This document shows, piece by piece, positions 7,873 to 10,025 of a stretch of DNA of 33,704 bases; position 1 is the stretch's first letter, and every line of letters begins with the position of its first letter. Under the pieces are notes generated by a model, which saw only the letters and a list, made by a program, of their open reading frames with translations, did not search any database and was not told the origin of the DNA. Source of the DNA: an uncultured Clostridia bacterium (GTDB lineage: Bacteria > Bacillota > Clostridia > Oscillospirales > Ruminococcaceae); the NCBI GenBank assembly GCA_947632425.1, contig CANRPG010000002.1, forward strand, positions 1-33,704. The letters are read 5' to 3'. The translations under genes and the position numbers were made by a program.

Positions 7873-8421
7873 CTACTTATCTATATGTTTAATGAACTTT
7901 TTGCGAAACCACTTCATATAGGCGGTTATTATATTGGTAAGGGCTACGTCGTACACGAGGAACACGACGTTTGCCAGACCAAGCATTATTATCAGCGAAT
8001 ATTTGCCGTATTTGCCGAGCGATTCGGTGAGTTCCTGACTTACGACCAGTATTTTTACAAGCTGATAATACACCACGAGCGCTGCATTGAACAGCACAAA
8101 TTTTGCCGCCCACTGCCCTGCGCGCGGCTTTATCTTTGTTTCAAATACAGATTTTATTATAGGGTAATAGCCCATGAACGTGATATACAAAAGCCCTGAT
8201 TCTTTATTCGGCACGATGAAAAACGTCAGCAGTGCGACTGCAACATAAGAAAGCAGCGCCCACCGCAGGTTTATCTCGATAACTATTACTATAAGCAGAA
8301 TGCCTGCCAGCGCAGGGATAGTATATTCAAGCCCGGGGATAACGGATGCCAGCAGCATGACGACCAGACTCAGCGAGGACACCACGCCGCCGAGGGCTAT
8401 TTTATAACTTTTCTTTTTCAT
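7873..8421 (-). CDS. Conserved multi-pass membrane protein, function unknown (ECF-transporter-S-like topology possible)
   Basis: MKKKSYKIALGGVVSSLSLVVMLLASVIPGLEYTIPALAGILLIVIVIE...: about 5-6 hydrophobic segments. Confidence 0.7.
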   Translation of the reverse strand: MKKKSYKIALGGVVSSLSLVVMLLASVIPGLEYTIPALAGILLIVIVIEINLRWALLSYVAVALLTFFIVPNKESGLLYITFMGYYPIIKSVFETKIKPRAGQWAAKFVLFNAALVVYYQLVKILVVSQELTESLGKYGKYSLIIMLGLANVVFLVYDVALTNIITAYMKWFRKKFIKHIDK

Positions 8422-8437
8422 ATTTTACACGCTTTTC

Positions 8438-9052
8438 TCAGCAGCAGGAAATGAAGTCGCCGCCCATACATTCGCAGCAGCAGTCGGTACAGATAAGCGC
8501 TTGACACATATCGCACGGGCCGCAGCCGGGTCTGTCGCTGCCCATATTATAGTGCTGAGAGCCTTCGCCGTTCATATAGCCGCTGCGGCGCTGGTTCATC
8601 TGATTCATCGCTGCGCTGTACTCTCTGTTTGAAGGATCCATCGAGCAGGCGCGCGAGAAGTTTGAGTAGGCATCATTCAGCCAGCCTCTTGAATAGGCAA
8701 CGCTGCCTTTGAGGAAATACCACTCGGCGTTTCTGTTATATTCGGGTATGCCGTTTAAGATATTATCGGCTTCGGAGACATTGCCATTGCGGATAAGCTC
8801 GCGGACGTGGTTATAGCTTGCGTTTCCGTATGAGGTACTCTCCCCTGCTGTGCTGCTGCCGCCTCGGCGCATATTCATTATTTGGTCATACGCCTCGTTT
8901 ATCTCGGACATCTTCTCGTTAGCGAGGTCGCTGAGGGGGTTGTCTGCATAGTTATCGGGGTGATACTTTTTTGCAAGCTCTCTGTAAGCCGCTCTTACCT
9001 CATCATCGCTTGCTGAGGGAGAAACTCCCAAAGTTTTGTAAGGATCTGTCAT
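8438..9052 (-). CDS. J-domain (DnaJ-like) protein with TPR-like middle and Cys-rich C-terminus
   Basis: MTDPYKTLGVSPSASDDEVRAAYRELAKKYHPDNYADNP (HPD motif); tail CGPCDMCQALICTDCCCECMGGDFISCC. Confidence 0.9.
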   Translation of the reverse strand: MTDPYKTLGVSPSASDDEVRAAYRELAKKYHPDNYADNPLSDLANEKMSEINEAYDQIMNMRRGGSSTAGESTSYGNASYNHVRELIRNGNVSEADNILNGIPEYNRNAEWYFLKGSVAYSRGWLNDAYSNFSRACSMDPSNREYSAAMNQMNQRRSGYMNGEGSQHYNMGSDRPGCGPCDMCQALICTDCCCECMGGDFISCC

Positions 9053-9081: not shown

Positions 9082-9966
9082 TTACTTTTCTTCTATAGAA
9101 AATCTCTTTTCAAGCACTGCCTCACAGGAGGCTTTGAGCCCCATATACACGATATTATCAAGTATGGGTTTGAAATTTTTTATCTCCAGCTGCACATAAT
9201 AGTCTGCCAGCGCGGAAAGCGTCATATTCACGCTGTTTATCATATACTCTTTAATTCTGCCGCAGTCGCTCTCGCTGATGCTGCCATGCAGGTCAAGCTC
9301 TTTTATAAGAGGGTCATAACTGCCGCGCTTTATGTCGTCATGCAGATCGTCGGCGGCATCGCACAGATACACAAATCTGCCGATAAAATAGCCGAACTTA
9401 CGCAAGATCTGCTGCTTGTCGCTGTCTTGTGAAAGACCAGAGGCTATGCTTTCCATCATAGAGGCGGATGGCTGTATGGCTTCGTCGATAGACACGCCCT
9501 GTTTGCGCTCGGTCTGCTGCTGCAATATCATCTGCTGCTCAATACTTTTGGCAAGATCGGGGTACATACCCTTGGCTTTTTTATAGCCTTTCTTCATAAG
9601 CAGCAAAAGCAGCCTTGCTGCTAGCTTTTTTATAATGCCGCCTTTATCGTAGACATCATCGCGCAGTTTATGGTATATAAGTATCTGCGCTGAGGCGGCT
9701 GAATACTCATACCCCTCGCCGCAGAAGGCGCAGGGTCTTTTCTTTATCGGGTGCGCGATACATCTGCACGGTTTTACGTCGGGTCGGCAGCCTTTCAAAG
9801 AGAGGTCTAAAAGAGCTAAAAATGCAAAGTCGTAGCTTAGCACCATTCTCGGGACAAGCCCATACTGCTTGCCTATATATTTACAAAGACCGCAATACAC
9901 CGCTTTATACGTTTCATACTCGCAGATGCGCATTTGCGGCTTATACGTTTTTACATATCCAAACAA
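9082..9966 (-). CDS. DUF5685-family protein, Cys-rich N-terminus, two DDxxD motifs
   Basis: MFGYVKTYKPQMRICEYETYKAVYCGLCKYIGKQYG (TTG start, RBS AAAGGGG); DDVYD (aa 103-107) and DDLHD (aa 206-210). Confidence 0.8.
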   Translation of the reverse strand: MFGYVKTYKPQMRICEYETYKAVYCGLCKYIGKQYGLVPRMVLSYDFAFLALLDLSLKGCRPDVKPCRCIAHPIKKRPCAFCGEGYEYSAASAQILIYHKLRDDVYDKGGIIKKLAARLLLLLMKKGYKKAKGMYPDLAKSIEQQMILQQQTERKQGVSIDEAIQPSASMMESIASGLSQDSDKQQILRKFGYFIGRFVYLCDAADDLHDDIKRGSYDPLIKELDLHGSISESDCGRIKEYMINSVNMTLSALADYYVQLEIKNFKPILDNIVYMGLKASCEAVLEKRFSIEEK

Positions 9967-10025
9967 GCGGCTGCCCCTTTCTATTTAGCAGCAGAAATCC
10001 TTATACAAGCCGTCTCTACTGCTAT

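Follow-up and report, generated by a model that had tools for sequence, protein, structure and literature searches.

The DUF5685 family: a predicted class I isoprenoid-synthase fold encoded beside a cysteine-rich tail, the candidate substrate for a proposed bacterial cysteine prenylation

In class I terpenoid synthases, three Mg ions are bound by a first motif, D-x3-D, and a second, about 100 residues further on, with the spacing N/D-x3-S/T/D-x3-E/D. Among the enzymes that transfer prenyl groups to peptides, ComQ prenylates a tryptophan of ComX and needs NDxxx or GDxxx as a pseudo-second motif (PMC5331326), and according to a 2026 review the characterised bacterial trans-IDS-like prenyltransferases all target peptide tryptophan (PMC13290415). 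In protein farnesyltransferase, Zn activates the thiol that receives the lipid (PMC13290415), and a farnesylated Hsp40 has been documented (PMC8262983). Here we compare these systems with a locus in which DUF5685, a family that our literature search found mentioned once, in passing, is encoded next to a protein with a cysteine-rich tail; the same search found no account of a bacterial J protein with a Cys tail in company with a prenyltransferase.

The window (the whole 33,704-nt stretch of DNA that was analysed) contains an open reading frame, 9082-9966 on the minus strand, which over its whole length matches PF18937 (DUF5685; E 1.4e-79), its sole Pfam match, and which starts with TTG at 9966 (Table 1); residues are numbered here as in the window protein. 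A sequence-only reading of this DNA had pointed to two DDxxD motifs as the paired signature of isoprenoid synthases, and both are located as claimed, DDVYD at residues 103-107 and DDLHD at 206-210. Shuffling the protein gives at least two DDxxD motifs in 0.3% of cases, and elsewhere among the 33 window proteins two are found in one, a chemoreceptor with an acidic C-terminus.

Table 1. Coordinates of the features discussed (positions in the window unless another locus is named)
Feature	Position	Strand	Basis
DUF5685 protein, 294 aa, predicted class I isoprenoid-synthase fold	9082..9966	minus	PF18937; AlphaFold2 and Foldseek
Ribosome-binding site AAAGGGG ahead of the DUF5685 TTG	9974..9980	minus	read from sequence
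C25-G-L-C28, invariant cysteines, with invariant Y24 just before	9883..9894	minus	45-homologue alignment
C69, third invariant cysteine	9760..9762	minus	45-homologue alignment
First aspartate motif, D103-x3-D107 (DDVYD)	9646..9660	minus	D103 and D107 invariant, 45/45
Second motif, predicted to bind metal, D203-x3-D207-x3-D211 (DAADDLHDD)	9334..9360	minus	invariant, 45/45; aligns with N-x3-D-x3-D of SQS/PSY
Partner, 204 aa: J domain, TPR-like region and Cys-rich C-terminal tail	8438..9052	minus	PF00226, E 2.3e-16; same-strand downstream pairing
Cys-rich tail of the partner: last 30 residues, 10 Cys, SCC end	8441..8530	minus	tail analysis
Third gene: membrane protein of 182 aa with a predicted RibU-like (ECF S-component) fold	7873..8421	minus	AlphaFold2, pLDDT 76; Foldseek, RibU
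Prenyl-synthase-like proteins near DUF5685, NDxxN second motif	L146:7565-8509, L147:3757-4899, L149:3795-4817		motif reading

An alignment of 45 diverse DUF5685 members, with identity down to 20%, has 12 invariant columns (Y24, C25, C28, C69, D103, D107, E153, G196, Y200, D203, D207 and D211), which include the five aspartates expected to bind metal (D103/D107 and D203/D207/D211) and three cysteines (C25, C28 and C69). The paired signature thus stands insofar as both aspartate regions hold invariant residues, but not in its DDxxD form: the motif at 103 is canonical in only 22 of the 45 homologues (the second residue, D in these 22, is N in 14 others) and that at 206 in only nine, while D103, D107 and the DxxxDxxxD frame never vary. 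Because D103 and D107 are among the invariant columns, the first motif is given here as D-x3-D; the second, judged from the alignment, reads as DxxxDxxxD at 203-211 rather than DDLHD at 206-210. Lying about 100 residues apart, the two motifs have the spacing of those in class I terpenoid synthases. The GGKRxR, RRG and FQxxDDxxD motifs conserved across 26 IDS are missing from the 45 members, and since it is GGKRxR and RRG that provide trans-prenyl synthases with their canonical basic residues, it is not obvious how DUF5685 would bind a diphosphate. The window protein has D at residue 218 (codon 9313-9315), where 44 of 45 homologues have N, so that SYDP replaces YNP at 9312-9320 (residues 216-218); the near-identical proteins of L031 and L032 also have D at this position.

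The AlphaFold2 model of the window protein, made from an alignment of seven sequences, is all helical (pLDDT 83, pTM 0.84), as the sequence-only reading had expected from its largely helical look, and places D103 and D107 at one end of a helix, D203 to D211 inside a long later helix, and C69 in a loop whose pLDDT is under 50. When this model was compared with solved structures, the check that had been proposed for it, the best 50 Foldseek matches in the PDB were all isoprenoid synthases (probability 0.99-1.00, best E 1.4e-3, query TM-scores 0.39-0.63), among them geranylgeranyl, farnesyl, octaprenyl and solanesyl diphosphate synthases and MoeN5. In a viral structure library all matches were weak; the top ones included trans-prenyltransferases and UbiA proteins. 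Sequence searches of solved structures gave no match with the single protein, and with the 45-sequence profile returned designed helical repeats and helical chance matches only, with no isoprenoid synthase. Our modelling makes it very likely that DUF5685 has the class I isoprenoid-synthase fold; this claim rests on a prediction, but on a specific one.

In profile comparison with hhalign, DUF5685 scores 37.3 against four squalene/phytoene synthases (SQS/PSY; E 1.4e-4 to 2.2e-4), compared with at most 20.5 for 40 column shuffles and 14 for the reversed profile, and the alignment, which is limited to the region round the second motif, puts D203/D207/D211 on the N/D/D of NxxxDxxxD and the Y-N/D-P after them on Y-L-P. 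The second motif is also in register with DUF2600 (27.2) and with polyprenyl synthases (25.4). These two matches were dropped as proof of homology, since an unrelated J-protein alignment scores 26.5 and neither does appreciably better, and the SQS/PSY comparison alone is counted as sequence evidence.

The position of the gene downstream of dxs and ispA on the same strand had also been remarked on. The location is correct, but its relevance is not borne out: the surroundings of dxs and ispA represent a common gene order, xseA-ispA-dxs-tlyA-nadK-argR-recN, and three genomes of the same genus (G004, G005 and G007) have DUF5685 a long way from ispA or on a different contig. We rejected this vicinity as functional evidence because it is not conserved within the genus, and the closeness of DUF5685 to ispA and dxs is incidental. 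The telling neighbour is the gene directly downstream, which was absent from the sequence-only reading.

In the window, this gene encodes a J-domain protein whose cysteine-rich tail (CGPCDMCQALICTDCCCECMGGDFISCC; also given as GCGPCDMCQALICTDCCCECMGGDFISCC) has no tryptophan. The tails of the partners compared have 4-11 Cys together with a conserved D and G, and the near invariance of these two residues beside the cysteines may mean a metal site. The tail is the constant part of the partner, and the J domain or TPR can be missing: the tail is kept without a J domain in L052, L060 and three f66 genomes (L150-L152), where it belongs to TPR-like or unclassified proteins, and the partners in L042 and L048 are short J proteins that carry it. 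Moreover, the J domains of L014, L022, L026 and L030 have lost HPD, the motif that J proteins require for driving Hsp70.

DUF5685 was found in 31 of 41 near-relative genomes and in 34 of the 300 genomes of a phylum-wide sample, and Thermotoga maritima, which carries it, was the control in both scans. Among the near relatives, all 29 complete loci have a Cys-tail gene next downstream of DUF5685 on its strand; in the phylum sample such a gene lies directly downstream in 29 of the 34 genomes with DUF5685, in 20 as identified by the tail profile and in nine as a J protein whose Cys tail is shorter. In one further genome (G177) it is DUF5685 that bears a long Cys-rich tail, and in the other four (G090, G164, G223 and G247) there is no Cys tail nearby. 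Three of these four keep the invariant DUF5685 residues despite this; in G164 the gene is broken. That copy (G164:C4:6175-6777, in L153) has an internal TGA, is shortened and is probably a pseudogene. The C-terminal tail of the tailed DUF5685 (L059:1501-2628, the same as L146:6001-7128) is rich in both Cys and His (HHHHDCCCDCCDCDD...CELLECFC). In 43 measured DUF5685-partner pairs, which were picked for the presence of a partner so that their count is uninformative on frequency, the two genes are on the same strand with a median spacing of -4 nt, many of them overlapping.

At least five Cys in the last 30 residues were found in 16 of 370 genes (26 regions), namely 15 partner genes and the tailed DUF5685. 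A protein profile of the tail only matched 20 of the 300 genomes, once each and always beside DUF5685, which is expected of a profile built from DUF5685 neighbours; the informative part is the absence elsewhere, as there was no match in the 266 genomes of the sample that lack DUF5685. This profile replaced a strict DNA pattern for the tail, which was too narrow (three of 300 genomes, all with DUF5685). Our results indicate that the pairing of DUF5685 with the tail is a functional link, of a kind that the pairing itself does not tell.

We speculate that DUF5685 may attach a lipid to the tail, because it has a predicted isoprenoid fold and metal site and because its gene is almost always directly ahead of the tail gene. 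DUF5685 is probably an enzyme that acts on a prenyl diphosphate; that it is a metal-dependent enzyme of class I fold which prenylates the Cys tail of its neighbour is a reading we prefer tentatively, at a little under an even chance. Starting from the conserved residues, the predicted fold, the gene pairing and the co-occurrence, we infer metal binding (Mg and Zn), donor, acceptor, reaction, product and membrane anchoring as follows. D103, D107, D203, D207 and D211 would coordinate Mg2+, and these ions would bind an allylic prenyl diphosphate and ionise it; FPP from the cellular IspA would be the obvious donor. The acceptor would be at least one cysteine thiol in the Cys-rich C-terminal tail of the next gene's product. 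C25, C28 and C69 could hold Zn2+, which would activate the acceptor thiol like the Zn in protein farnesyltransferase, and such a Zn-Cys3 site could leave the fourth position open for the substrate thiol. The prenylated tail would then anchor the J-domain/TPR co-chaperone at the membrane, where the product of a third gene would also sit. DUF5685, possibly with a Zn-Cys3 site, and the Cys tail of a dedicated J/TPR co-chaperone may thus constitute a separate bacterial machinery for cysteine prenylation, comparable to farnesylated Ydj1 or to the cysteine-string protein of eukaryotes; we advance this as possible, with more doubt than confidence.

It could also be argued that DUF5685 is a terpenoid synthase with a small isoprenoid product, comparable to squalene/phytoene synthase or the DUF2600 enzyme YtpB, and that the J/TPR/Cys-tail protein is its dedicated chaperone or membrane scaffold rather than its substrate. 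The DxxxDxxxD spacing is that of the NSE/DTE triad of terpene synthases, squalene/phytoene synthase is the closest profile match with the second motif in register, and DUF2600 carries a motif of similar spacing where the two align. However, a chaperone role leaves unexplained why the tail persists in proteins whose J domain is degenerate or gone, we recognised neither a cyclase nor any other terpenoid gene next to DUF5685 in the regions read, and C25, C28 and C69 have no known role in such chemistry, all of which makes this explanation rather unlikely. The three invariant cysteines would have a role if the tail carried metal or Fe-S and delivered it to a metal centre at C25/C28/C69, with DUF5685 as a metalloprotein on an isoprenoid-synthase scaffold, by analogy with the J protein HscB in Fe-S transfer. 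The 4-11 tail cysteines with their conserved D and G, the fusion of one Cys-rich tail to DUF5685, and the fact that many of these Clostridia are anaerobic are consistent with a carrier, but we consider it improbable, as it does not account for the five invariant aspartates in both isoprenoid motifs, and G223 and G247 keep the three cysteines with no tail gene nearby.

The same aspartates bear on whether DUF5685 is instead a non-catalytic relative of the fold that merely binds the tail or a lipid, as the missing canonical basic diphosphate-binding motif and the lack of any DUF5685 activity on record might suggest. Since the five expected metal ligands are unvarying in 45 diverse sequences, we regard this as very unlikely. 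Of the diphosphate-metabolising or degenerate synthase-like fold proposed in the sequence-only reading, the fold is upheld by Foldseek, but the degeneracy does not fit with metal ligands that never vary.

Alongside the proposed prenylation of the tail by DUF5685, other genes at these loci deserve mention. The third gene of the window encodes a protein with no Pfam match, whose model matches RibU in Foldseek (probability 0.98-1.00, E no better than 0.03); membrane proteins of about 180 residues also come after the tail gene in several other genomes, and relatives of the third gene have weak DUF2232 matches. In G177, G223 and G247, which represent two other families (G177 one, G223 and G247 the second), a polyprenyl_synt protein is encoded near DUF5685 (E 2.9e-49, 2e-42 and 1.9e-39, respectively). 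These proteins keep the first DDxxD, RRG and KT, have NDxxN as their second motif and R or M in place of the GGKR lysine; on these motifs they resemble the ComQ pseudo-motif and are candidate new peptide prenyltransferases. In addition, G223 and G247 have two Hsp70 genes at the DUF5685 locus. As ComQ-like genes and Hsp70 both occur at DUF5685 loci, prenyl transfer and chaperones would therefore recur there by independent routes. The two Hsp70 genes (L147:1-3754 and L149:16-3792; about 510 aa, no Cys tail) are beside DUF5685 and the ComQ-like gene, and the protein between them has a C-terminus that is J-domain-like by eye (NSPD or NHPD).

For a family of no assigned function, present in Clostridia and Thermotoga maritima, the analysis predicts a fold and an active site and proposes the product of the next gene as substrate. 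If the proposal is true, bacteria would have a new kind of lipidation, a cysteine-directed one with a co-chaperone as its target, unreported for a bacterial enzyme of class I fold. Should the tail not be the substrate, an explanation is still needed for why an isoprenoid-type enzyme and a Cys tail seem to be paired exclusively.

Compared with known systems, DUF5685 is like the squalene/phytoene synthases (PF00494) in its predicted class I fold and DxxxD first motif, and their N-x3-D-x3-D is in register with its second motif, with Y/F-x-P nearby; unlike them, it has no PF00494 match, its C25, C28 and C69 are invariant and its partner carries a Cys tail. Its best structural matches are trans-isoprenyl diphosphate synthases such as IspA (PF00348); D103/D107 resemble their first motif, and D203/D207 fall on DDxxD positions 1 and 5, whereas their GGKRxR, RRG, FQxxDDxxD and Pfam match are lacking. 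The DUF2600/YtpB terpene synthases (PF10776) have the D-x3-D-x3-D spacing and an N seven residues later, but the profile score is 27.2 vs 26.5 for the control, and their genome distribution differs from that of DUF5685. DUF2600 was found in 61 of 150 phylum-sample genomes and PF00494 in four of 150; the window genome has no DUF2600. Because the defining features of trans-prenyl synthases, PF00494 and ComQ that were tested are lacking, we place DUF5685 only in the class I isoprenoid-synthase superfamily, where on the predicted fold it is a new family. ComQ and PalQ, which are trans-IDS-like peptide prenyltransferases, have the class I fold, a gene adjoining that of the ribosomal substrate and an acceptor near the C-terminus, as proposed here; however, they modify tryptophan, and ComQ needs NDxxx (PMC5331326, PMC13290415) where DUF5685 has DxxxDxxxD (DAxxDLxxD). 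With protein farnesyltransferase and farnesylated Ydj1/DNAJA1, the DUF5685 system would share a J co-chaperone lipidated at a C-terminal Cys and a Zn-activated thiol, but protein farnesyltransferase has another fold, recognises CaaX and is eukaryotic. By analogy, DUF5685 may therefore work like ComQ in its fold and neighbouring ribosomal substrate, and like protein farnesyltransferase in its Cys acceptor and possible Zn, while being a member of neither.
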